A stretch of DNA of 64,000 bases from Polytrichum commune (taxonomy: Eukaryota; Streptophyta; Polytrichopsida; Polytrichales; Polytrichaceae): the NCBI GenBank assembly GCA_950295325.1, contig OX485809.1:4836001-4900000 (forward strand), given 5' to 3'. Below the pieces are notes generated by a model. It made no database searches. It had not been told where the DNA came from and saw only the letters and a program-made list of their open reading frames with translations. Made by a program: the position numbers and the translations under genes. Positions 891 to 54,284 of the stretch are shown in pieces (the stretch's first letter is position 1; every line of letters begins with the position of its first letter).

Positions 891-1086
891 AGAGGATAAC
901 TCGGTCGATCGAGAACCAAAATGTAGTTGTTCGGTAGAGGCTCGATTAGGGAACTGGCTGGAAAATTATTTGATTGAGAAGGCGATCGAAACTTATTTGG
1001 ATCGATAGAGGTTTATTGAGGAGGTGGTTGCAATTTGAAGCTTATTTGGTTCGGTAGATCGAGTTGATAGAGGAGCTGGTGCAGGG

Positions 1087-4000
1087 ATGGCGGTGCACGG
1101 CTCCTCTCGCAGGGATGCGGAAGAGGAGATAGAGGACGGAGAAGATGATGACGATGATGATGATGAGGGGTTTGATGAGGAGTTCATGAAGCAGATGGAT
1201 GCCTTGAAACAAGCTTGCCAGATGCACGCTGAGTCTCGGCCGGGTGGAGAGGTAAGACTCAAGAGCTCAACCCTAGGAACCAAGTTTGGGAAGGAAGAGG
1301 GAGAAGAAGATGACCAAGAGGACGATGATGATGATGATGATGATGCTCTCCTACTTTCCATTGAGCGCAGGTTCTTGAGGCGAGATGTGGCTTTTCCAAA
1401 ACCCTTGGCTAGTGCTCCCGCAGGTGTGGCCAGGCATTATCCCTGCGTGGCGGACGATGTTAGGAAGGAGAAGGAGAAGCAGCCGGTGCAGAGAGGAGGT
1501 TCTGCAAACCATGGGATCCATGTTGCCTCTGCTGTGCAGGGAGATGCATCTTCTGACGATGATGAGGACCTGTTGCGGTCGATCAGACAAAGTTGCGGGG
1601 CTTTGGACCTCATCAAGGCATGTAAAAATGCGAAAACTGTTACGCCGGATGCTCGAAGGGAGGTGGAAACCGTGCCGGATGATGTGGATGTGGAATACCC
1701 TGATGCATGTGGAATTGAGGAGGCGGAGGAGGAACCGAGGCTTGTGAAATCGGACGATAGAATTGAGCTGCAGGGTTTTCTTCCTTCGCAGCATGTCGGT
1801 GATGATTATGACAATTGGGATGGAGCTTCTGGTGAGCCAGTGGTTGAGGTCCCCGAGAATGTGCTGGCAGTTACGGATGCATTGAGAAAAAACAGGCTGT
1901 GTCAGCAAACCCTAAGGGATGTGTTGCGGCAAGTGGAGATCAAGTTGCAAGAAAATAAGGACATGCAGAGACGCGTGAACTCGTTGATTGAATTCCAGAA
2001 GGCGTGCAAGCGAAAGTTCAGTGGGTTCACAGAGGTGGCCAATCCATCCGTGGAGCTTATTGCAACGAAAACATCGCGGGCAAAGAAGACCGGGGAGTTC
2101 AAGGTGAAAGGTCCTCCGCACAATGTAGATGTTGAAATTTTTAGAAAATTGCAGTGCCAACTTCCCACAGAGTTCAATGTGAGGAAGTGGACGAAGAAGG
2201 AGATTGATTCTTTGGGGAAAGGTGTGCGGCAACAGCTCCAACAGATTTGGCTGCGGGTGGTTATGGAGGGTTGGGCTTCCGACAACGAGGAGCGAGATTT
2301 CAATGAGCAATTGCGACATATTGGAGAGGAAGAAGAGGAATTGAAGAAAGGACTCCCTTTTGTTGACTGGAAAGAGGTAGCACGCATCTATGTGAGCGGT
2401 CGGACGCCCTCGGATTGCAAATTGCAATGGGAGAACAATGAGAATCCGTCTGCAAATTTTGGAATTTGGACCAAAGCAGAGGACAAGAAGCTACTAGCTA
2501 TTGCTCAGGTCCATGACATGGCAGATTGGGCAGCGATTGCTGAGGAGTTGGGCACACGTCGAACCCCAGCACAGTGTGTCATACGCTTTCAACGCAGCCT
2601 AAATGCAACAATTGTTCGCAGTGCTTGGACTCCTGAAGAGGATGAGCAGCTGCAGGCAGCAGTAGAGAAATTTGGAGAGAAGGATTGGCAATCAGTGGCT
2701 GCCTGCATGGAAGGCCGTTTGGGTTCACAGTGTATGGCTAGGTGGACCAAGGTGCTACACCCTGACCGCCATCGGCGAGGGAGATGGCAAAAAGAAGAAG
2801 ATACACGTTTGAAGTGGGCTGTCTCAGTCTATGGACCTAAGGGCTGGAAAAACATTGCCACACATGTACCAGGCCGGTCTGATGTTCAATGCCGGGAGCG
2901 GTGGTGCAATGTACTGGATCCCTCGGTGAACATAGACGATTGGACTCCAGAGGAAGATGCAAAATTAGAAGACCTTGTAGTCAAGTATGGGCGCCATCGG
3001 TGGGCAGCTGTGGCAGCGGAGCTGGGTCGCACTGACAATCAGTGCTTCCGACATTGGAAATTGTTGCATCCAAAGCACAGAATGTCTTTCAAGAAAGATA
3101 TGGCTATTCGTCGGGCTGCTTTTGCATCAAACTTTGTTGGTCGGGAAAAGGAGCGACCTGACCTTGGACTCCAGGATTTCCTACCCCCTGAACTGGGGGA
3201 GAAATGCATCACAGAGAAGCCCTCGAAGCAGCCCTTGATGTGTGGATCTATTAAGAAGTCTAGGCTACGCGTGACTGCCCCAAGTAAAGCACGTTCTGCC
3301 AAGCGTAAGAGGAATGCACCTAGGAATGAGATGCCCAACGGCCAAGATAGGGAGGAAGATGATTCAGACACCGTTTCGGACATTGATTCAGACATTGGCA
3401 GAGAGTCTAACGTTCTTGAAAGCCCACATAGATGTCAAGTTCCGACACAGGTTGCGAGAGCTGGCAAGAAACGAAAGGCAGCCCAGCATGACTTGGTTCT
3501 CTATAACAAAGAAGGAGAGGAGGTAGAGAGGGCTGAAGCACCTGTAGCACAGATACCTATGAAACAGAAGTCGAAGTCTGCATCAGCTGCAAAGAGACAG
3601 AAGATAAATCCCCCAGTTGGTGAGATTCTTAGGACTGAGGGGGCTCAAGCAGCTGTTGCACTTAAGCCCACAAAACAGAAGGCGAAATTGGTGGCGTCTG
3701 GAAATAGACGTAGGAAAGACCCATCAGTCTCTGAGATTCATAGGCTTGAGGAGATACATGGGGCTGAAGCTGCTGCTGCTGCACCTGTGCGCAAAAATTT
3801 GAAGACCAAATTTACCCCTGTTGCAAAGAGACGTCAGGAAGTTCTTCCTATATCTGATAATCAAAGGGTAGAAGAGACAGATGGGGCTCAAGCACCTCTT
3901 TTGCCGGAGCTCACATCACAGAAGACAAGATCTGTCCCTGCTTCAAAGAGACGAAGGAAGAAAACTTCATTATCTGACAATCAGAGGGTGGAGGAGGTAG

Positions 4001-4776
4001 AGGGGGCTGAAGCACTTGTTGCACGTGAGCTAACCGTACGGGAAAAATTGAACACATCAAATGCAAATAGAAAAAGGAAAAATCCATTTTCTGACATTCA
4101 GATGGTGGAGGAGGTCGTAGAGGGGGCTGAAGTGCCTGCCTTACAGAAGACCAAATCCATGCCCGTTTACAAGAGGAGGAAAAATCCTCCTGTTTCTAAC
4201 ATTCTTAGGATTGAAGAGGTACAGGGAGCAGAGGCACTTGTGCAAAGATCTGAACCTGCATGTGTTGAGAGGCAGAGAGAAGACCCTCCAGTTTCTGACA
4301 TACAGAGGACGGATGAGATAGAGGGGGCTGTAGACCCTGTTCTGCTCGAGCCCTCATTGCCTAATTCTGGATCAGTGCCCGTTGCACAGGGACATGGGGA
4401 AAATGCTCCACTGTCAGACATTCTTAGAGCAGAGGATAGGGTTCCGGATAATGGTGGATACTCAAGCATTCCAAATAGCCAGCAGGAACTCAAAGTGTAT
4501 AAACGGCGGGAAAAGAAGATTGAGATGGCTCAAGCCTTTGATCTTGTTTCGGCATTAATTGAGCCATTGCAAGACGAGCAGGGATACAGGGTTGATGTGG
4601 CTCATCCTGTTTCGACATTAATTGAGCCTTTGCAAGACGAGCAGGGAGACAGGGTTGATGGGGCTGATCCTCCTACAAGCTTCGACATTATTACTATGGT
4701 AGTGCCCAAGCCGGTGTTGCGGAGACACAGGAAGAAGCTTCAGCTTCCCGATTTTGTATACGACAGAGGAGATTGA
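1087..4776 (+). CDS. SNAPC4: SNAPc subunit 4-like MYB protein (MYB4R1 type), single exon, 1229 aa
   Basis: The protein probably binds the proximal sequence element of snRNA promoters as the DNA-binding subunit of the snRNA-activating complex, in the nucleus. The region around residues 365-455 (a WTKKE motif, then DWKEVARIYVSGRTPSDCKLQW) resembles the half repeat Rh of human SNAPC4. Four MYB repeats follow: Ra from about 459 (GIWTKAED), Rb from 513 (AWTPEEDEQL), Rc from 565 (RGRWQKEED) and Rd from 617 (DDWTPEED), ending at HWKLLHP near 661. This 4.5-repeat layout is diagnostic of the family. The N-terminus holds two acidic runs encoded by GAT triplets. The tail, about 805-1120, is a basic/acidic tandem repeat, followed by a 21-residue duplication. 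The first ATG of the frame is used; it follows an AGGG context. No intron is needed. The symbol names the family; plant databases would call it MYB4R1. Confidence 0.9.
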   Translation: MAVHGSSRRDAEEEIEDGEDDDDDDDEGFDEEFMKQMDALKQACQMHAESRPGGEVRLKSSTLGTKFGKEEGEEDDQEDDDDDDDDALLLSIERRFLRRDVAFPKPLASAPAGVARHYPCVADDVRKEKEKQPVQRGGSANHGIHVASAVQGDASSDDDEDLLRSIRQSCGALDLIKACKNAKTVTPDARREVETVPDDVDVEYPDACGIEEAEEEPRLVKSDDRIELQGFLPSQHVGDDYDNWDGASGEPVVEVPENVLAVTDALRKNRLCQQTLRDVLRQVEIKLQENKDMQRRVNSLIEFQKACKRKFSGFTEVANPSVELIATKTSRAKKTGEFKVKGPPHNVDVEIFRKLQCQLPTEFNVRKWTKKEIDSLGKGVRQQLQQIWLRVVMEGWASDNEERDFNEQLRHIGEEEEELKKGLPFVDWKEVARIYVSGRTPSDCKLQWENNENPSANFGIWTKAEDKKLLAIAQVHDMADWAAIAEELGTRRTPAQCVIRFQRSLNATIVRSAWTPEEDEQLQAAVEKFGEKDWQSVAACMEGRLGSQCMARWTKVLHPDRHRRGRWQKEEDTRLKWAVSVYGPKGWKNIATHVPGRSDVQCRERWCNVLDPSVNIDDWTPEEDAKLEDLVVKYGRHRWAAVAAELGRTDNQCFRHWKLLHPKHRMSFKKDMAIRRAAFASNFVGREKERPDLGLQDFLPPELGEKCITEKPSKQPLMCGSIKKSRLRVTAPSKARSAKRKRNAPRNEMPNGQDREEDDSDTVSDIDSDIGRESNVLESPHRCQVPTQVARAGKKRKAAQHDLVLYNKEGEEVERAEAPVAQIPMKQKSKSASAAKRQKINPPVGEILRTEGAQAAVALKPTKQKAKLVASGNRRRKDPSVSEIHRLEEIHGAEAAAAAPVRKNLKTKFTPVAKRRQEVLPISDNQRVEETDGAQAPLLPELTSQKTRSVPASKRRRKKTSLSDNQRVEEVEGAEALVARELTVREKLNTSNANRKRKNPFSDIQMVEEVVEGAEVPALQKTKSMPVYKRRKNPPVSNILRIEEVQGAEALVQRSEPACVERQREDPPVSDIQRTDEIEGAVDPVLLEPSLPNSGSVPVAQGHGENAPLSDILRAEDRVPDNGGYSSIPNSQQELKVYKRREKKIEMAQAFDLVSALIEPLQDEQGYRVDVAHPVSTLIEPLQDEQGDRVDGADPPTSFDIITMVVPKPVLRRHRKKLQLPDFVYDRGD
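3500..4450 (+). repeat. In-frame tandem repeats of about 35-40 codons in the MYB gene tail
   Basis: About eight degenerate units, each 100-122 bp, carry the pattern KRR(R/K)..P.SDIQR(V)EE(V)EGAEA. Anchors start near 3622, 3733, 3854, 3976, 4094, 4198, 4300 and 4418. Each unit joins a basic patch (KRRRK) to an acidic SDNQRVEE-like patch. A separate 63-bp perfect-frame duplication (SALIEPLQDEQG and STLIEPLQDEQG) starts at 4546 and 4609. Confidence 0.85.
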
Positions 4777-7572: not shown

Positions 7573-7800
7573 CAGTGTCCAGGCAGATTTTTGAGCATAA
7601 TCGGTCGACATCCTAGTGTTTTCAAGACCAACCGGTTACATGTTGGCATCTTTCAGTGTTTCTTCATTAGATTGAGGAATGTTCTGTAACCCACTCTAAA
7701 TGGGGATTGGCAATTTTCCTTGAGGTTTGAATCTGAACTGGCTATTTCTCAAACTCCACCAGTTCATGTGTAACTAGCGGTCAGTTCTCTCCATTCATTG
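7573..7800 (+). mobile_element. hAT-like MITE, AACCGGTT family, copy B
   Basis: The left end CAGTGTCCAGGCAGAT and right end CTCTCCATTCATTG match the family termini. The body repeats the family order: ATAATCGGTCGACATCCTAGTG, then CCAACCGGTTACATGTTG, then CTATTTCTCAAACTCCACC. The flanks (ACACCAAC / TTCTTAGC) show no target duplication, so the copy is old or its ends are rearranged. Confidence 0.65.
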
Positions 7801-8035: not shown

Positions 8036-8500
8036 ACTGGACGGATTTTGGAGTATCTGAGGGGCTGATTGCACCGGCCAGTTTTGACACCATCCGTTGC
8101 CATCTCCGGCTGTAATAGTGTGAAAAGTGGTGGGCCAACATCTTTTTCTCAACATAGTCCCCATCCATTTCACAGCTGGAACTGAATGAAGTTTTTTCGT
8201 GTGATCGGGGCCCGAGGGGTTGATCACACTAGCCACTTATGACACCATCCGTTGACATTTCCAGGTGTAATAGTGTGAAAAGTGGTGGGTCACCATCTCT
8301 TTCTCAACATAATCCCCACCAATTGCACGGTTTGAACCGGACGGAGAATTTGATGTGATCAAAGCCCAAGGAGTTGATCACATTGGCCAATTTTGACACC
8401 ATCAGTCGGCATCTCCGGTTGTTATAGTATGAAAAATAATGGGCTAGCATCTACGGTTTCTAAGTTGAAGAAAGTGTGTGGCCCAACAATTTCACAGCTG
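8036..8500. repeat. Tandem repeat, period about 155 bp, three units
   Basis: Unit anchors start at 8061 (GGGGCTGATTGCACCGGCC), 8216 (GGGGTTGATCACACTAGCC) and 8370 (GGAGTTGATCACATTGGCC), giving periods of 155 and 154. Each unit then reads TTTTGACACCATC, a TAATAGTGTGAAAA(G)TGG core and a CTCAACATA box. An AT-rich simple stretch follows to about 8558. Confidence 0.85.
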
Positions 8501-11936: not shown

Positions 11937-14900
11937 ATGGCAGCTCGATCATCCGCCGCGGCTCTGTTCAAGCGGGCGCTCGCCACTGGCGCCAGCCAGC
12001 AGCAGCAGGTGCGATGCATGTCCAGCGAAGGACCCCGTCGCAAGGTGGCCGTGCTTGGAGCGGCCGGCGGCATCGGTCAGCCGCTCGGGCTCCTCATGAA
12101 GCTCAACCCCTTGGTCACCGATCTCTCGTTGTATGATATTGCCGCCACTCCCGGCGTCGCTTGCGACATCAGCCACATCAACACCGGTGCCAATGTGAGA
12201 GCACCTGCCTCGGATTTGCCGATTGTATATACTTTTTTGTCTTCCCTTCCGATTTAGCTAAGGAATGGTATTGTAGTTCAGAATGTTACGTGCTGTATTT
12301 GTGCTGAATGGTTGTTGAGCTTGGTGTGTGTCTTTGAGTTCTTGATTTGTAGTGGTCGCTGAGAAAAATGCAACGTCGTGCACCTTAACACCGGTGCTAG
12401 TGTGAGTGCCACTTGTGATGGATCATTGCTCAGCTTGATGTGTTTATTTTAGTACTTGATTTTCCACATGAGCACTGGTGCCAACGCGAGTGGTTGCCTC
12501 GGATTCGCTGGTTCTATATTTATTCTTCCCTTTCGATTTAGCTGAGAAATCTCCATGTAGTTCAGGGTGTACTATGTTTTCCTTGTCCTGAATCATTGTT
12601 CAGCTTTATGTGTTGCATTTTGTGCTTGATTTCCTACATGAACACCGGTGCCAATATTAGTGCCTCGGATTTGCTAATTTCATATTTGTTTACCCCTCTC
12701 GATTTAGTCAGCTGAGGAATGTTGTAGTTCAGGATGTCCTTGTGCCGAATCATTGTTCCAGCTAGATGTGTTTCTTCGATTTTTGGAGGTGGTTGAGGGA
12801 AATGCGATCTCGTACACATCAACACCGGTGTTGGTGCGAGTGCTTCCATTTTGCTGTTGCTCCTGTTTTAGCTTGGAGACTTCGAAGTTCGAACTGGACT
12901 CTCATACATTGGCGCTTTTATTTTAGATGCGGATTCTCTGGTCCAATCGCTTTGTTGTTTTTAAAGTTTTTGTTTGTGATGGTAGCTGAGAAGAATGTGA
13001 TGTGCAGGTGGAAGGTTATGCTGGAGAGGCTGATTTGGGAAAGGCCTTGAAGGGATGTGACTTGGTTATCATCCCAGCCGGAGTACCACGCAAACCTGGA
13101 ATGACTCGTGATGATCTGTTCAACATCAATGCTGGTATTGTGAAGACCCTCTGCACGGCCATTTCTGAACACTGCCCAGGGGTAGGTTGATATATCTCTC
13201 ACCTGAGTATTTCAACCTCATTGTAGAAAATCCAGAGTTTAAAACTTTTTAATAAATGGGATCTGCTTACTTAAAAATCATAACACATGTATATGCGGTC
13301 TTTCACGAACATGAAAGGTTTCGCTCCATGAATAAATTGGAGCGTAATTGAGTGTGATGTTCTAGTTTAAGGCCGATCTGCACTTGTCAAGAACCTCACT
13401 CGAGATAATTGTTCTCTCCAAATATTTTATCAATGTGGAGACCACAAACTGCTGCACCTACCGTTTAGTTACTTGCCAAAAAAATCGTAGACTGGCTAAA
13501 TACTTCTCTACACCGCATTTATGAAGTTGCTGTAATTTATAATGGTAGATTTATTGGATGAAGGGTATGGGACGCTTGATTAATTGCCTCTCTGCAGATA
13601 TTTCACAGAAAATGTACAGTAGCTTAATACATATCTAATAAGCATGCCTATGAGAGTTCAGGACTTAAATAATGCCTGTCGTCATGAGGATTATGTATTC
13701 CTACAGCTTCCAGCTCTTTCGAAGTGCAGTCATGTAGACGATGGTGGTTATTTGAATGACTTGTGCACTTCTGTTTCAAGTACTGAATATGATTGTGTCT
13801 TCAGCAATAGTCTTGCACTTTGTAATACTAATATCAGACGTAAATACACAATTTCCATGATATACATATTGTTTTACACTGTTGCCTTGAGGTTAACTGA
13901 ATGTCGTCTTGTATCGAGGCTAATGAATATGATGTTGCAGGCGTTAGTGAACATGATCAGCAACCCAGTGAACTCAACTGTCCCAATCGCAGCTGAGGTA
14001 TTCAAGCAGTATGGTACTTATGATCCTAAGAAGCTATTTGGTGTGACCACTTTGGATGTGGTGCGAGCAAGGACATTCTATGCCTCCAAGAAGGGTCTAC
14101 GTGTATCAGGTGTGCTGTTATCTCGTTTCACTTGCTAGTTGGTACATGCTGCAGTGCTAACTAGATTCATGGATACACACTCTTTCCAGTCAATGCGAAA
14201 TGCATATTACAGAAGAGAATATCTTTGGAATTTTTTCTTCTTCTAAAGGGACAACATTAGTACTTGTTGTAGTATGCTCCAGGATAGTGATGATGGAACC
14301 ACCTTTGTAGAGATATTCTAGCAAGTTATTTGTGGTCAAAATATAGAGAACGCACATTGGAGGTTTTTGATCTTTTGTGTGGTTATACAGGTGTGGATGT
14401 CCCTGTCGTGGGAGGCCATGCAGGCGTCACCATTCTTCCACTTTTCTCACAGGTGATTGCTCATGTGCCAGCTCTGAAGTACATTGGTAAATAAATAAAA
14501 CTAATGAGATTAGCTTTGGAAACAATGGACATGGTTACTGCATTGTAGGGTGTGGGCAATTTACTGATGTGTTTTTAAAACGGAACCTGCTGGCAGGCCT
14601 CTCCATTGGAGAAGTTGACTGACGAAGAGATTGAGGCTCTTACCAAGCGCACACAAGATGGTGGCACTGAAGTTGTGCAAGCCAAGGCTGGGAAGGGATC
14701 TGCCACTTTGTCAATGGCGTAAGCACCATGCTAACTTCCTATATACTTAAATTGTAGAAATGTAACAGTGGCTGATGAAGTGGTTGCCACCATCTACAAC
14801 CATTCCTGAATTAATATGTACTTGCTATATTTTGAAGCAGTTCCTCTGGAAGGCAGTTTTGCTCCTGAATGGGGTACTCAATGTGGTTGTGGCGAGTTTT

Positions 14901-19370: not shown

Positions 19371-19530
19371 CCTTTTTGTTAGATGAACGAGAGGTATAGT
19401 TGTTCACAATAATTCCTCCAAGTTGTCTCCATGCACTTGCAACAAAAAATTTGTGAGTATGGACACATTGCTCATAAATTGTTAGGCTTATGTGGCTTCT
19501 ACCTACTTGAAGAGTGTTATGTAAACTTGA

Positions 19531-19750
19531 AGGTTTTAAGCCTTCAATGTCCCAAGGGGTGTATCCCAATTCAATGATATAGAAGAAAATATGACACACA
19601 ACTTCAAAAAAGTCATGGAGACTGAAATGTGTACTACTAAAGGTTTAAAGCATTCAATGTCCCAAGGGGTGTATTCCAAGTCAATGATATAGAAGAAAAT
19701 ATGACACAAAACTTCAAAAAAGTAGTGGAGGGTGAAAAGTGGACTACATC
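19531..19750 (+). repeat. Two tandem units of 110 bp
   Basis: TTCAATGTCCCAAGGGGTGT starts at 19543 and again at 19653. Each is followed by CAATGATATAGAAGAAAATA and ACTTCAAAAAAGT. The units are nearly identical, so the duplication is fairly recent. Confidence 0.9.
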
Positions 19751-23951: not shown

Positions 23952-26900
23952 ATGGCGAGGGAGAGGCCACAACTGCGGGAGGAGAGTATTGCAAGCTTGT
24001 TGAAGCAGTCATGGTTCCTATGGCGCTCTTGCTTGGTTCCTGTCCTTATCTTAGCCCTAATTTCTAGCCTGTACTCCTACGCATTGGAGACTTATGTCAG
24101 TCCTATGGCACTTTCTCATATGGACGGAAACGGAAACTCGACACAGAGTAGGAATTCTTCTTCATCATCTCTTGCTGGTCTTGCTGGTGCTCGTGACGCT
24201 CAGGATCTGAAGATGGCCAGAGAACTGTTTGAAGGTGGTGGTGGCCAGATTGAGGATAAGGACAAAGGATTTGTGGCACGCTTCATGGCCGCGTTCCTCG
24301 CTTCGTTCGATGAAGCTTTGATGGAGGGTCTGGCGGATTCCAGGGAGAAAAAGATGTCTGTGTATGATTACGATTCCAGAGGTGGCACGGAATCATCCAG
24401 GAAGGCCGCATTGAATTTGGAATCTTCTTCACATCCGAATTACGATGTCGATGTAAGTGTGTCCCAGCCCAACCTGTCCTCTCTTGATTTTTTCCATACA
24501 CACACAGCAGCTTCAAAACTATATTGAGTTGCTATTAAGTGTAGAACTCTAACTCATAATGAGAAATGGTTATTATATCCTGGGGTTGAATTTGGAATCT
24601 TCACATCTGGATTATGATGTCGATGTATGTCCCAACCTGTCTATGTATCTCTTTTCTAGTGTTGGCTTAACATACAGAGCAGCGTTAAAACCACCTCGAG
24701 TTGCTTTTAAATGCAGAAGTCTATCTCATAATGAGAAGGGTTGTATAATCCTGGGGTTTTAAATAAATACTCCTAATTGCAAGGATGGTGGAATGTTAGA
24801 CAATGATAAGTCACGTTCATACCTTATGATTCATTTGACATTTATGAAACTCACGCTCCAACATTGTGGATCTTGCAACTATAAAGTATCGAAACAAAAG
24901 ATTAAAAATTGCAACCGATGTATGTCTCAACCTGTCCTCTCTTATCCATCGGTGGTATACACAGCAGCTTCGATACCACTGTTGTGTCTTATACTCCATC
25001 ACTATGCGGGAAAATTGCCTTGAGTTGCAAGGCATTTTGCATAATGAAAATCGTTATGTTATCCTGGGGTACCCTAGTTGCAAGGATGGTGGAGTGTTAG
25101 AATTTGATAGGTCGTTTTCAAGATTTTCCCGAAGTAGCCAATGATTTATTCAATAGTGATCCAACTTATTTTTCAATCTTTGACGTCTTGCAACTGTGAG
25201 AAATTTAGAACATTAAACAAACGATGAAAATCGCAGCCCTAGGTTTGGTAGGCATTGATTAAATGTGGCACTTGGATGTGGTTGAATCAATTTGAAATTT
25301 GTGTTGATATGTGATTGCCTCGAGTTGCTGTCAAACATTGTAGTTTGTCTCATAGTGAAAAGCGATATATTATCCTGGGGTACCCCTAATTGCATGAGTG
25401 GTGGAATGTTAGAATTTGATAGGTCATTTTCAAGATATTGCCAAAGTAGCTAATGATTCATTCAAAATTGATGCAACTCACAATATAACCTTAGAGGTCT
25501 TGCAACTATAAAATGTATAAACAAATGTTTGTAATTGTAATTGATTACCGGTAATTGTTATACTTAGATGTACTTGAATCAAAGTACATCAGTAGTCAAA
25601 GCCGTATGGTATTGCTGCAGCTTGTTTAGAAGGCACAACAGAGAAGAATGCTCCTTCGAGACATTCTGTGGATATTTTCTTAATAGGAGATTACAGGAAA
25701 GTGGGTATGGCTGAATCTGGCTGGATATATTGTGGTACTTTTCAGGATTTTGTTTAGTGAACTTGAAATGTTTGTAGCGCTGATCATTGGTTGTGTTCTT
25801 TTTCAGGGTGCCACCACTACCTCTGATGCCACATCTGAATCAGGATCAAAGGAAGCATTGTTAAAGATAGATGGTGTCAGTGAGACAGAGCCCATTCCCC
25901 AATTTTCTCTCAAATTAAGATATCTGCGGAAGAATGAGAGTACTGAAGCAGAGAACTATCACGAGGAAAAAGTTGGGATTGGGATGCCTTCAGCTCGGCT
26001 GATGGGAGGAAGGAACCTGGACAGAGGTGCTAGGCCTCATGTAGGACTCACACTGCTCTTCGTGTTGAGCATGTTACTCGGTGTTTTTGCAGCGTCTTTT
26101 GCCATCGTCATGTGTCAACATGCTGCTCTTTTAGGAACCATCGCGTACAGTGTTGTCAGTACTTATGTAGGAAAGCGAGTAAGCACTGTTCGTGCAATGA
26201 AGGCTGGTGTCAAATTAGGTCTGATCCGGTTGGTATGGCTCGCTTTTCTGCATGTAACTATTAGGGATTTGATGTGCCTCTTCATTATGAAGACCCTAGT
26301 CGGCGGAGTGTTGGATCCAGAGAGAGCTGATAAACTTGTGCTCCGGCTTTCATTTATGCCCTTCTCAGTACTTGCACCCTTTAGGGACGCTGAAGCCACC
26401 AGCTTGGAAATGGCTTTTCGAATTGGGGGTTTTGTGAGTCTGGACTACCTTTTTGATGCAGCAATCTCATGCATCTATATTGTGGCATGCTGGGTAACTA
26501 TCATGGAGAGACAATATTGGGGTTTTTCTGCTTTGACACGTGGGTGGAAGTTGATCTCCGGCATGCAAAGTCAGGTTTGTCCTGTTTTAAAGTTCTCAAT
26601 CAGATTGTGTAGCTTGCTATTGTCTTGCAGTGTCTCAAGCTGCATGTGTTCATCATTGATGAGATAGTTAGGCCGTACTTGTTTCAATCTTAGTATAAGT
26701 GATTTCTGAGTATGCTCAGTACAATTATCATAGATGTATGTTGGAGTGTTATTTTCGGAGTACATTTGGATTGGGAACTCACTCGGGATGGTTATTTGGA
26801 CTAACATATTTTCATGTGTAAGCAGGTAATTGCACTCAAGGTAATAGAGGGTGTCTTAACTGGAAGGAGTGCTCGCTGGATCCTGCAACAGTTTATGGGC

Positions 26901-27047
26901 CCCTTCCTCTCTTTGCTTGTTGTTTCAGCAGGCCAGATGTACTTCATTATATGCTGGCTAGTGTTGTACTTTTCGGCACGCTTCAAGCAGGAGAACACTC
27001 ATTTTAATTCCAGAATTTTGGAGGACTTTCTAGACAGGCTTAGGTAG
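23952..27047 (+). CDS. Unrecognised multi-pass membrane protein, three exons, 496 aa
   Basis: Exons read by eye: 23952-24452, 25807-26574 and 26826-27047, with GT-AG introns, all in phase 0. The N-terminal hydrophobic segment at residues about 27-45 (CLVPVLILALISSLYSYAL) follows a charged start. A hydrophilic Ser/Gly/acidic stretch to about 240 is followed by hydrophobic segments near 246-268, 273-287, 305-327, in the region around 390-412, and near the C-terminus (about 443-475). The C-terminal tail is charged (FKQENTHFNSRILEDFLDRLR). I do not recognise the family and assign no function; a plant-specific membrane protein is an inference. The in-frame ATG at 23844 is rejected because 23952 opens a normal cytosolic N-terminus and lies after a GC-rich leader. 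Its promoter and first intron both show tandem duplication. Confidence 0.8.
24400..25480 (+). repeat. Intron 1 of the membrane-protein gene: tandem copies of the exon 1 end
   Basis: The exon-1 end (GAATTTGGAATCTT..CACATC.G.ATTA.GATGTCGAT and donor GTAAGT) recurs at 24590-24630 with donor GTATGT at 24625, and in reduced form near 24915 (CGATGTATGTCTCAACCTGTCC). A downstream block (GAGTTGC...CTCATAATGAGAA...ATCCTGGGGT) occurs four times, near 24524, 24697, 25017 and 25317. The spacing is 170-320 bp. Confidence 0.85.
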
Positions 27048-36964: not shown

Positions 36965-37309
36965 CTCGGGGGGGGGGGGGGGGGGCAGTGTGTTAAAAAG
37001 TTAAGGATATAGGTGCGAACAACCACTATTTTATAGGGGGGTATTGCTTTCAATTTTTTTTTTCACATGCTATCATTATGTAAATTTCTACTTTGGGTTA
37101 ATAGAAAAATGGCTTGCATTACTTATAATTCCAAATTACCTATTATTCCATACCCTATAGTACTTTAAAGATGTCCAGTGTCATTTTTGATACCCTATAT
37201 TACTTTTAAGTCCATTTATAATTTTTTGCCCCCATGTTTTTAAAATACCCTATCATTTGTTCACACGTATATTGCTACTCCAACCAATGACTACCCCCCC
37301 TCCCCGAAT
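36965..37309 (+). mobile_element. G-tract MITE, copy 1 (345 bp, 8-bp target duplication)
   Basis: It starts CTCGGGG with a G18 run and ends CCCCGAAT, flanked by ATTGTATT at 36957-36964 and 37310-37317. Imperfect terminal repeats of about 60 bp include ATATAGGTGCGAACAA and, inverted, ATATACGTGTGAACAA. It is nearly identical to the inverted copy at 41998-42346. The 8-bp duplication suggests mobilisation by a hAT transposase. Confidence 0.85.
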
Positions 37310-39374: not shown

Positions 39375-39965
39375 AGGTGTCATGGTGTCTATGTAAGCTC
39401 ATCCATTGTGGAGAAAAAGGGTTCAAATAAAAAGAATCCCTGTATGGGTTTGGGGTCGATTCATTCAAGTTGCACCTCACTAGATTAATTCAAGGTATAA
39501 TCTATCATTTTTAGAATCATATTATCTTAAATAGTCATCTTCATGGTTATTACGTAGTTCATTGCATTTTCACCTCCCTATTGACTGAGTTTTTTTTTTA
39601 AAAAGAAAATAAATTTAAAGCACATGGGTCACATGTAGCTACAAAAAGTTAATACTCAAGGAAAACCTCAAGAGAACATCTAAAATTATCCCTTAATTTT
39701 ACGAGTATAGATGGGGGGTTTTGATGGGTAGGGAGTTGGGCTTGGGGTTCGTGGTGTATGTGTAACCTCATCCATCCTGAATGAAAGGGCTCAAATACAA
39801 ACAAGTGCCATACATGTTTGGAGCTGGTTAATTCCAGTTGCATCTCACTAAACTAGTTTGGGATATTTGATGTCATTTTCATAGTCACATTTTGATAGTC
39901 ATGTTCAGGATATCAAGTGTTGCGTTGTGTTTTCACACTCCTTTTGGATGAGTTTACATACTAGA
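39375..39965. repeat. Dispersed repeat (CTCATCCATTGTGGA family), two units
   Basis: Units at about 39375-39590 and 39738-39965 share CTCATCCAT, GGGTTCAAATA, TTGCACCTCACTA and GTGTTTTCAC with each other and with 18745-18960. Confidence 0.55.
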
Positions 39966-41799: not shown

Positions 41800-42475
41800 C
41801 TAGGGTATGTGGGTGTTATTTGGTCCAACTTCTATTAATTAGTGTCACACAACAAATCTAGCATGAAGCAATATAAAAAAAACGGATTGAAATTCGAGCT
41901 GAGCCTGGTTTAGTTATGGTTATCAGAAGTGCATGTTTGTTGATTCCTAAATTGGATACCTAGTTCCTCCCAGTTGTGCTTATTATTAAGTGTGGACCTC
42001 GGGGGGGGGGGGGTAGTCATTGGTTGGAGTAGCAATATACGTGCGAACAAATGAAAGGGTATTTTAAAAACATAGGGGCAAAAAATTATAAATGGACTTA
42101 AGAGTAATATAGGGTATCAAAAATGGCACTGGACATCTTTAAAGTACTATAGGGTATGGAATAATAGGTAATTTGGAATTACAAGTAATGCAAGCCATTT
42201 TTCTATTAACCCAAAGTAGAAATTTGCATAATGATAGCATGTGAAATAAAGAAGAGAATTGAAAGTAATACCCCCCTATAAAATAGTGGTTGTTCGCACC
42301 TATATCCTTAACTTTTTAACACACTGCCCCCCCCCCCCCCCCCGAGGTGTGGACTGGTTAATAATATCTAAAGACATAGTGCAATCTCATTGAAACTTGT
42401 GTCTTTATGGTATTCGTTCTTTGATCCTCACCGAACTTCACACCAATCAAATATGAGTGTTCATTTAAGAAGAAT
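41800..42475 (-). repeat. Dispersed repeat split by the G-tract MITE
   Basis: Removing 41998-42346 and one GTGTGGAC restores a continuous minus-strand copy of the 20385-20720 family: the block before the gap (GGAACTAGGTATCC..., complement) joins the ATATTTGATTGGTGTGAAG block exactly where the intact copies do. Confidence 0.7.
41998..42346 (-). mobile_element. G-tract MITE, copy 2 (8-bp target duplication)
   Basis: It starts CTCGGGG with G13 and ends with C17 then GAG. The perfect duplication GTGTGGAC lies at 41990-41997 and 42347-42354. Differences from copy 1 are few (for example ATTATGCAAATTT versus ATTATGTAAATTT), so this is the youngest family seen in the window. Confidence 0.9.
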
Positions 42476-43821: not shown

Positions 43822-44138
43822 CACTAGTAGAAAACTATGCCCCAAAAAAACCGCTGCCAAAATTGGTTGCAGTTCTTTTGACCAACCTCATTTGCAGTGG
43901 CTAAACGACTACATTTTTTTGATTGCAATTTAGTAATTTGAGGACGTGTAATATATCATTGGGAAGGTATTTTCAAGACCTTTCTAATGATATATCACAC
44001 GCCCTCAAATTCCTAAAAATACAGTCGCTAAACCAAAAAGACAAATATGCAATCTTTTAGCGATTGTAGATTAAGATGGTCAAAAGAAACGCAACCAATT
44101 TTGGCTGCAGTTTTTTTGGACATAGTTTTCTACTAGTG
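43822..44138. mobile_element. CACTA-type MITE forming a near full-length hairpin
   Basis: The ends CACTAGTAGAAAACTATG and CATAGTTTTCTACTAGTG are perfect inverted repeats of En/Spm (CACTA) type. Pairing continues inward (GCCAAAATTGGTTGC, CTTTTGACCA, ATTTGAGGACGTGTAATATA) to the centre near 43970. The flanks CAA / CAG are compatible with a 3-bp duplication. Confidence 0.85.
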
Positions 44139-45654: not shown

Positions 45655-47337
45655 ATAGAATAAAATAAAAGCAACGTCTGGGTTTCGTTTACCCTGACGT
45701 GAATGGGAGCCCGTTCTACTCTACCGTGATCATGTTTGACCAAGCGTCACTGTAGGGGTACTTCCTCTCTTTCAGGAGGTGGGCTCCTTTAGTTTACCCA
45801 TCGGTTCAGTTCCTAGCCTCTAGGGGGGATCGACATGTGATTGTTTGTTGTCTAGTTTTCTTTTGTTTAATATCAGGTATGTTAGGTACTTAATGGCTAT
45901 TTGGTGTAGTTGCTTCATAAGTATTTTGATTTCTCTTTTGGGTATTTTAAGGTTTTCTAGCTCTTAAATTGGTTGTTCATGGATAGCCCCTCTAACTCCG
46001 GTTGTGATAGTGATGAGGGGTTGACTTGCCACCCAGCTATTTTGAGTGTTTGGATGAGTGGGTTGTACTTCTCGGTTTTTTCCCTTTTGTGCGGTATTTG
46101 GGAATCTGTCATGACAGTATGTGAATTCAATGAATTGTATGACGTTTGATTGGGTTGGCGTTAGGGGAGGGTGCTTTCGGAGGGAGCACGTAGCACGCAT
46201 AGTATGTCTGGCCTGAGTCTAGCTAGACATGTGCATGGTGTGGTATGACATGAACATTGGAGTAGCCATGTTGGGACTGTGTTGTCTTGTGGTCTGAGAT
46301 TTTGGTTACCTGCATTTATAAGGGTGTAAAATCTTCTATGATTGCTTGATTGTAATGTATGTACTATTTGATGAACTGCCTTATTGTGTCATGCTTTACG
46401 CAATCCCTTTAAGTGTGGGTTTGAACATGTGGAGAGTAGGTGTGGCCATGTATCTAGGGCATTATTAGGGCATAGTGTACAGTTCGGGTTTGGGTATATA
46501 TTGGGCCAAAATATATGTTTACGGTGGTTACCCATGTATTGGGCGTATCAGAATTTTAGAGTTTGTGTAATATGGGCGTCTGTTATTCCATGGTTTTTCC
46601 AGAATTGGTTGGAAAGTTTAGGGTTGATTTGGCCGTTGGATGTCCATTTATCTATGTATGTGAATTTGGATTGGGCCCATTTTAATTCTTGGCTTTTGTG
46701 TTCTTTGTTAACGTATGTTTGTAGGTTCCGTATGGCACCTGTGTGTGTTCCAGTTGGGACCCCGTTGAGCCAATATGGAGTAGTATGGGCCGTATGTATT
46801 CTAGGGGTGTTGGTGGGTTTGTCTAGGAGAGCACCGTTGTTTGCTAGTTGGTCCGCGATTTCATTGCCTATTATTCCTATGTGTGCCCATACTTTTTGAA
46901 TTGTGATTTTGTGTGTGGATCATGTTATGTGGTTGATTATGGCGGAGATGAGTAGCTTATCTGGGTGGTTATGTTGGGATGATGGATGTCGTATATGGTT
47001 GTGTATTATATATATAATGTTAAGGTTGTCTGTAAATATGTGTGTATCTTGTGTGTGTTGATGTGTTTCTTGAACTACTATAAGGAGGGCGTTTAGTTCA
47101 GCTCTAAGGATATTTTGTAGGCCTGGTAGTCTCTTTGCGATTCAGAGGTTGTTGGCGGGGCAATATACGCTTGAGCCACCTTTGTTCCCGACGCCATTCT
47201 CATCTGGAGGGATAAATGATCGGTCAGCGTACATGCATTGTTGGGGTTTGAATTTAAGGGGGTGGGTGTTGGTATAGTTCTATTGGTAGTTGTTGTGTTG
47301 AGTGGGTGCTTTCCTGGTGTTCATATATTGGGGCTTT
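45655..47337 (-). pseudogene. Decayed LINE 3' half: RNase H, zinc knuckle and restriction-like endonuclease
   Basis: Translated on the minus strand, an RNase H domain starts near 47250 (YADRS where YTDGS is usual; RAELNALL; IFTDNLN; then AHIGIIGNEIADQLAN), giving the D-E-D-D set. Next come CTLCPNNALDTWPHLLSTC near 46480-46420, a Cys-rich QCSCHTTPCTCLAR, LRPDILCVL, a frameshift, IEFTYCHDRF near 46110, K..KYNPLIQTL in another frame, and ITTGVRGAIHE. That series fits a PD-(D/E)XK endonuclease. LTYLILNKRKLDNKQ follows. Stops include TGG-to-TGA and CGA-to-TGA changes. The 3' end is A/T-rich (TATTTTATTCTATTTTATG on the minus strand). The reverse transcriptase part is absent. RNase H plus an RLE recalls the Dualen/RandI type. 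Confidence 0.8.
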
Positions 47338-50421: not shown

Positions 50422-50809
50422 TTGGGCTGGATCACATCTTCATTCGGCTGGGTTTTGCCCCTCCCACGCCTCCTTCACTGCCTGGTTTTCCCATCCGCAC
50501 CTGCGTGGGAGCTCTTCCTTATTGGGAACCAATGTGACAATATTGCCGCGTCACTAAAGCCATTCAACGCCCGGTCACATATGCCATTAAGCTCCTTCAG
50601 CATGTGAAGAGAGCTCTGTGGATTAACTTGGGAATAATGAAAGTGAAGTCGACTTGAGTGTTTGTGATTTTGACCGGGTATTGTCACATTGGTTCCCAAC
50701 GAGGAAGAGCTCCCATGCAGGTGTGGGCAGGGAGCATGGGGAAGATCAGGCAGTGAAGGAGGCGGGGGAGGGGCGGGGCCCAACTAAATGAAGATGTGAC
50801 CTAGCCCAA
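50422..50809. mobile_element. Foldback element with about 125-bp inverted arms
   Basis: The left arm starts TTGGGCTGGATCACATCTTC; the right arm ends GAAGATGTGACCTAGCCCAA. Further paired blocks are GCCTCCTTCACTGCC, GTGGGAGCTCTTCC and TTGGGAACCAATGTGACAAT. The loop is about 130 bp. No target duplication was found. Confidence 0.85.
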
Positions 50810-53816: not shown

Positions 53817-54284
53817 AGTCTCCAACTTCAACTGGTTATTGTTTCTCAAACTCAACTGGTTATTATTTCTCATACTCAACCGGTTATTTCTCAAACTCAA
53901 CTGGTTATTATTTCTCAAACTCAACCTGTTATTTTATCTCAAACTCAACCGGTTATTATTTCTCAAACTCAACCGATTATTTCTCAAACTCAACCGGTTA
54001 TTTCTCAAACTCGACCAGTTATTATTTCTCAAACTCAACCGGTTATTATTCCTCAAACTCAACTGGTTCTTATTTCTCAAACTCAACCGGTTATTTCTCA
54101 AACTCAACTGGTTATTATTTCTCAAACTCAACCGGTTATTATTTCTCAAACTTGACCGGTCATTATTTTTTAAACTCAACCGGTTATTATTTCTCAAACT
54201 CGACCGGTTATTATTTCTCATACTCAACTGCTTATTATGTCTCAAACTCAACCAGTTATTAGTTCTGAGACTGAACCGGTTCAC
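53817..54284 (+). repeat. Minisatellite, about 20 units of 24 or 21 bp with an AACCGGTT core
   Basis: The unit is CTCAAACTCAACCGGTTATTATTT or a 21-bp version lacking one TTA, given here as CTCAAACTCAACCGG plus TTATT(A)TTT. Other family members have one or two units at the same place. Because both lengths are multiples of three, frames stay open on both strands (53719-54294 plus and 53934-54284 minus); these are not genes. Confidence 0.95.

Follow-up and report, generated by a model that had tools for sequence, protein, structure and literature searches.

Two unrelated genes in a 64,000-nt stretch of Polytrichum commune DNA (the window), one encoding a malate dehydrogenase (MDH) and the other a membrane protein with a DUF7813 domain, each have a first intron that contains adjacent head-to-tail copies of a segment with both exon and intron sequence, which places the two arrays among tandem duplications across an exon-intron boundary. 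We consider it probable (roughly 80%) that both introns were lengthened by ordinary short head-to-tail duplications that spanned the splice donor, were silent for splicing, and left copies that have been decaying. The preliminary description of this DNA had reported the pattern in the first introns of two unrelated genes, and it is indeed present in intron 1 of both genes in which we found coding introns.

Genes and Coding Introns in the Window

The MDH and DUF7813 genes together contribute all eight coding introns considered here; the third gene of the window, a Myb-repeat gene (1039-4776), is one open frame. Of 35 open reading frames (ORFs) of at least 100 amino acids, 15 were searched in Pfam, comprising five from the three genes and ten others (limit 0.01 for these ten); the remaining 20 include frames that overlap the three genes or run antisense to them, and frames in the minisatellite. 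It is possible that the window holds a further intron-bearing gene that went undetected.

A Five-Unit Array in MDH Intron 1

The MDH gene comprises seven exons starting at 11937, and its spliced ORF of 349 aa contains both Ldh_1 domains, with a glyoxysomal enzyme (1sev_A, E 8.2e-135) as the best match in the PDB. At 813 nt, intron 1 is the longest in the gene; the others reach 759 nt at most, and introns 3 to 6 measure 144-281 nt. Five head-to-tail units tile the whole of intron 1, a pattern that is fuller and cleaner than the one in the DUF7813 gene:

11937..12194, plus strand: exon 1 of the MDH gene, from the spliced ORF of 349 aa and the match to 1sev_A
12174..12379, plus strand: unit M1, with 21 nt of exon end, the real donor at 12195, and most of the putative ancestral intron (nhmmer; used to build the model)
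12380..12464, plus strand: unit M2, with an exon-end copy and a GTGAGT donor copy at 12402, internally deleted (nhmmer, in pieces)
12465..12634, plus strand: unit M3, with an exon-end copy and GCGAGT at the donor position (nhmmer 12465-12633; used to build the model)
12635..12814, plus strand: unit M4, with an exon-end copy and ATTAGT at the donor position (nhmmer 12636-12813; used to build the model)
12815..13007, plus strand: unit M5, with an exon-end copy and GCGAGT at the donor position, running into the acceptor of the gene model (CAG followed by GTGGAAGG; nhmmer 12815-13002)

The two units that were kept out of the model are nevertheless matched by it: M2 in two pieces (12382-12410, E 0.043; 12411-12462, E 2.1e-6) and M5 at E 0.0039 over model positions 1-192, the fullest match ending at position 196. 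Judging from the coordinates, a unit would combine the 21-nt exon end with the greater part of an ancestral intron that measured roughly 170-190 nt, a size that lies inside the range of MDH introns 3 to 6. The codons that were copied, HINTGAN, correspond in alignment to HMDTGAV in an enzyme of solved structure.

A copy of the final 50 nt of MDH intron 1 lies within that intron (score 36, reached in 0 of 500 shuffles, the highest of which scored 34), and the same comparison in the seven other introns gave scores that 26 to 468 of 500 shuffles reached. The original acceptor AG is absent at all four internal junctions: two of them carry GTGCAC or GTACAC in place of the real GTGCAG, and in the other two the unit lacks its final ~30 nt. 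Other AG dinucleotides are present in the intron.

A Four-Unit Array in DUF7813 Intron 1

The DUF7813 gene has three exons starting at 23952 and a spliced frame of 496 aa, of which residues 237-489 match the domain (E 1.3e-45); exon 2 searched against the PDB gave nothing at E 10. Exon 1 ends at 24452 (..LNLESSSHPNYDVD followed by GTAAGT), and position 25807 is the first of exon 2. The intron between them, at 1354 nt, is the longest in the gene, the next measuring 251 nt:

23952..24452, plus strand: exon 1 (coding part) of the DUF7813 gene, ending in ..LNLESSSHPNYDVD (spliced ORF of 496 aa; domain match)
24411..24585, plus strand: unit U1, with 42 nt of exon end, the real donor at 24453 (GTAAGT), and 133 nt of intron (self-alignment)
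24586..24909, plus strand: unit U2, with an exon-end copy (39 nt), a donor copy at 24625 (GTATGT), and an intron unit (alignment; nhmmer 24616-24907)
24910..25224, plus strand: unit U3, with ~9 nt of recognizable exon end, a donor copy at 24920 (GTATGT), and an intron unit (nhmmer 24911-25223)
25225..25530, plus strand: unit U4, decayed, donor lost (nhmmer 25221-25530; alignment)
25531..25806, plus strand: the rest of the intron up to the acceptor (276 nt), with no significant unit copy
25807..26574, plus strand: exon 2 of the DUF7813 gene (spliced gene model)
26826..27047, plus strand: exon 3 of the DUF7813 gene, running as far as the observed stop codon TAG (end position derived by counting along the 496-aa frame)

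The preliminary description had proposed that this intron starts with a copy of the exon-1 end and its donor 172 nt downstream, followed by further decayed units, and both proposals were confirmed. The two donors (24453 and 24625) lie 172 nt apart, and alignment of the exon end at 24411-24452 with 24586-24624 gives 36 matches, 3 mismatches, and one 3-nt gap, a similarity that 0 of 300 shuffles reached. Beyond this repeat are two more units of ~310 nt. A unit model matches 24444-24586, 24616-24907, 24911-25223, and 25221-25530; it was built from those same units, and the matches delineate the extent of the array rather than prove it independently. The model has no nhmmer match in the 276 nt before the acceptor, and no copy of the final 50 nt stands out elsewhere in the intron (63 of 500 shuffles reach the score).

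In the intron part that follows the exon end, U1 and U2 differ at 31 positions and match at 97. The divergence of their exon part (3/39) is compatible with half of this intron rate (31/128; P 0.29), the rate to be expected if one copy evolves freely while the other is constrained. At the half rate there is no need to assume that the exon-end copies are under additional constraint. Under the full intron rate, the exon part would be more conserved than expected (P 0.008; Fisher P 0.024), and some selection on it, or conversion, may accordingly have acted. Because U1 and U2 differ about as much as the other units of this array do (17-32%), their divergence does not fix the order of the duplications. 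The copied exon end lies outside the domain match, and the direction of copying from exon to intron is therefore not independently shown in this gene.

Support for the Exon-End Copies

Out of 300 dinucleotide shuffles, none attained the copy score of the exon-1 end in DUF7813 intron 1, and none did so in MDH intron 1; in the remaining six of the eight introns, the score of the preceding exon end was attained by 11 to 296 of 300. The first 50 nt of these same two introns are also repeated within them (0 of 500 shuffles each; 32 to 417 of 500 in the other six). Judged by these shuffles, the exon-end similarity in the two introns exceeds chance. Copying of the start of the next exon, the corresponding pattern on the acceptor side, was seen in none of the eight introns (lowest value 52 of 300 shuffles), and no inverted exon-end copy stood out in 16 inverted comparisons (lowest 15 of 300).

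The scores themselves, 54 for the DUF7813 exon end and 35 for that of MDH, were also set against pseudo-junctions from the window. Among 12,632 of these, taken from both strands with both arrays included, 129 (1.0%) score at least 54 and 359 (2.8%) at least 35. Without the two arrays, 2.0% of 6,079 plus-strand pseudo-junctions reach the MDH score and 0.9% the DUF7813 score; when the minisatellite described below is removed as well, the values are 1.3% and 0.35% of 6,009.

If the units were instead a mobile or introner-like repeat that had landed in first introns and been partly taken into the exon, copies would be sought at unrelated sites, and none was found in the 64-kb window: beyond the array from which it was built, no nhmmer match to either unit model was better than E 0.4, and the two arrays have no match to each other. 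The segment copied in the MDH gene is enzyme coding sequence, and Rfam gave no matches at gathering scores in the whole window, in which no tRNA was found either. The copied exon end of the DUF7813 gene, lying outside the conserved domain match, may have a different origin and is the one point in favor of such an insertion, which we regard as very improbable for the two genes.

Possible Use of the Copied Donors

Six positions in the two arrays correspond to copies of a donor, and the initial GT is kept only at 24625, 24920, and 12402; positions 12486 and 12836 start with GC, and 12656 with AT. As candidate ends of an extended exon 1, all six were rejected, since extension to them meets 2 to 11 stop codons. 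This includes the donor at 24625, whose use had been suggested to add about 57 codons if the frames stayed open; extending exon 1 to it adds 172 nt (1 mod 3) with two stops, the first at 24525, which contradicts that suggestion. The exon-end copies were likewise tried as cassette exons, with 76 combinations of an upstream AG and a donor over five copy donors (12656 left out). Two of the 76 are stop-free and in frame, and this is not evidence of use. The two cassettes, both of 33 nt and one per array (12453-12485 and 24887-24919), are probably due to chance.

By a crude nine-position consensus, the real MDH donor scores 6/9, as does the copy at 12402, and the real DUF7813 donor scores 7/9 with its copies at 6/9. 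In the MDH gene, donor strength thus does not single out the first donor, given that the 12402 copy equals the real one, which is a point against our reading of the copies as passengers. Splicing from the first donors gives intact protein frames in both genes. This frame analysis argues against the formation of a new, separately spliced intron in either array.

How Donor-Spanning Duplication Would Lengthen an Intron

The arrangement of the units suggests the following course. The duplicated segment would have started inside the end of exon 1, held the donor, and brought along no copy of the original acceptor. Exon 1 would still end at the unchanged upstream donor, and with the acceptor not multiplied, the array could be removed as one intron. 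Donor-spanning duplications could thus have been tolerated, because the upstream donor stays in place and the acceptor is not copied. In the MDH gene, repeated tandem duplication together with some deletions would have produced the five units that make up the whole of intron 1. In the DUF7813 gene, the array comprises ~310-nt units beginning no more than ~9 nt from the donor, and a 172/175-nt duplication that took in 42 nt of the exon. The causal event may have been end-joining, slippage, or unequal exchange; microhomology at the breakpoints, assessed by eye, amounts to 1-2 nt at most.

The donor copies would then decay as neutrally drifting passengers. We read them in this way because their donor positions range from GT-intact to destroyed, the extensions to them carry stops, and the divergence of the exon part fits at half the intron rate. 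Such a mechanism would explain the persistence of the duplications without any function. The upstream donor is probably the one used in both genes; this, like the order of the duplication events, we infer from the sequence.

A function has to be weighed all the same, as the copies could reflect adaptive multiplication of an expression-enhancing intron sequence, each copy raising the dose of a motif near the promoter. MDH intron 1 contains six matches to TTNGATYTG with one mismatch (7.4 per kb over 813 nt, against a background of 1.45 per kb on the plus strand of the window) and five occurrences of CGATT (window 0.67 per kb), and the effect of TTNGATYTG in Arabidopsis is dose-dependent, according to PMC6760150 up to at least 20 copies. 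Yet intron-mediated enhancement is recognized by TTNGATYTG in a promoter-proximal intron, and the exact motif occurs in none of the eight introns. The near matches in MDH intron 1 are moreover not independent of one another, having arisen by duplication. In DUF7813 intron 1 there are two near matches, a density of 1.5 per kb that equals the window background, and each of the remaining six introns contains at most one, amounting to as much as 6.9 per kb in the short ones. Like the enhancing introns described in PMC6760150, MDH intron 1 is the first in its gene and has a near-motif count above the window average; unlike them, neither array carries an exact motif, and the DUF7813 intron is at background. 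Enhancement stays a side lead, and an improbable one, owing to the lack of an exact match and the non-independence of the copies, and passive lengthening by donor-spanning duplication remains our preferred reading.

Are First Introns Favored?

The preliminary description had gone further and proposed a recurrent mode of first-intron expansion in this genome. The arrays in two genes stand; a mode special to first introns is not supported by two genes with eight introns in a window where local arrays are common. What would be required is that donor-spanning tandem duplication is favored at first introns here, perhaps through breaks or R-loops close to promoters, and forms a main route of their growth. 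Both genes with coding introns do have arrays, in both of them intron 1 is the longest, and when eight local arrays were placed at random across the window, both first donors were covered in just 0.37% of placements (1.1% when six arrays were confined to 0.9-28 kb), a rarity to be read against the small number of genes, two, and a pattern noticed ahead of testing. Asking instead that at least two of the eight donors be covered gives 11% of random placements (24% confined). Longer first introns are, moreover, reportedly general in eukaryotes (Bradnam and Korf 2008, as cited in PMC7411622).

The eight arrays were chosen by hand; pairs that are inverted or dispersed were excluded, as were the 33-nt pair at 7745/7918 and short TRF rows, and the 24-nt minisatellite at 53819 was kept. 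Six of the eight lie outside known introns, so local tandem duplication is common in the window generally. Weighing these points, we regard a special first-intron mode in this genome as unlikely.

Outside the three genes, local direct-repeat arrays are found at 8059-8452 (spacing 155 nt), 19530-19747 (110 nt), and 39380-39955 (369 nt). The minisatellite (53819-54281) has ~20 copies of 24 nt and is open in several frames, with similar sequence on the opposite strand at 394-475. Within the Myb-repeat gene, 3526-4341 holds degenerate repeats with spacings of 111 nt and others, and 4541-4671 a clean 63-nt tandem repeat; as these repeats lie inside coding sequence, local tandem duplication evidently affects exons too.

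Relation to Known Duplications

Long introns, and the tendency of the first to be the longest, are for the most part explained by mobile elements and nonspecific insertion. A readable alternative is offered by the MDH gene, in which the whole intron would be a fivefold repetition of a shorter ancestral version, with each step plausibly harmless. A broader form of the idea, that first introns commonly grow as concatemers of the ancestral intron and the last 20-40 nt of exon 1, with the donor kept and the acceptor lost, is tentative and on balance doubtful. If it were true, introns would lengthen in splicing-silent steps and leave a ladder of decoy donors behind exon 1. Were such growth common, it would predict a footprint, namely exon-end copies inside the following intron, and also spare donors for alternative splicing.

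Duplications at intron boundaries are known from other plant genes. In the potato RdRp gene, a tandem duplication spanning the intron 1-exon 2 boundary is described as having made a new intron (Ma, Lan and Niu 2016, PMC4974935). The arrays described here share with it a head-to-tail duplication in a plant gene, at an intron-exon boundary of intron 1, with inherited splice signals; they differ in that the donor side was crossed and, as the frames suggest, an old intron was lengthened repeatedly with no new one made. In Arabidopsis TOUCH3, as described in PMC4974935 (which also cites Gao and Lynch 2009), internal gene duplication involved whole introns, and there too an existing intron was copied along with exon sequence by tandem duplication. 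In that account, however, exon sequence from either side was copied along with the intron, and the copies are introns in their own right, whereas the MDH copies carry the upstream exon end only, without the acceptor, and five units form a single intron of the gene model. Rogers-type intron gain, described in the same source as duplication of an AGGT exon segment, likewise puts splice-site sequence in new positions by tandem duplication; the segment here is mostly intron with an existing donor, and a new donor-acceptor pair is unnecessary.

Among the matches listed for open-licence papers, no title concerned first-intron lengthening by donor-spanning tandem duplication. On present evidence, the MDH and DUF7813 arrays are two cases of a known type of mutation with a neat outcome, and it is this outcome, the lengthening of an old intron, that differs from the known cases.

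Other Repeats in the Window

An inverted pair at 36969-37305 and 42002-42343, ~5 kb apart, is 95% identical over 342 nt, a much closer similarity than in any of the window's remaining long dispersed pairs, and possibly represents the ends of a mobile element. Among the ten other ORFs searched in Pfam, the one match is a weak one to RNase H (46551-46919, minus strand), which at E 0.00028 falls short of the curated cut-off and may be what is left of a retroelement. Long imperfect palindromes of foldback-like appearance are present at 43822-44138 (75% over 333 columns) and 50422-50809 (69% over 422).
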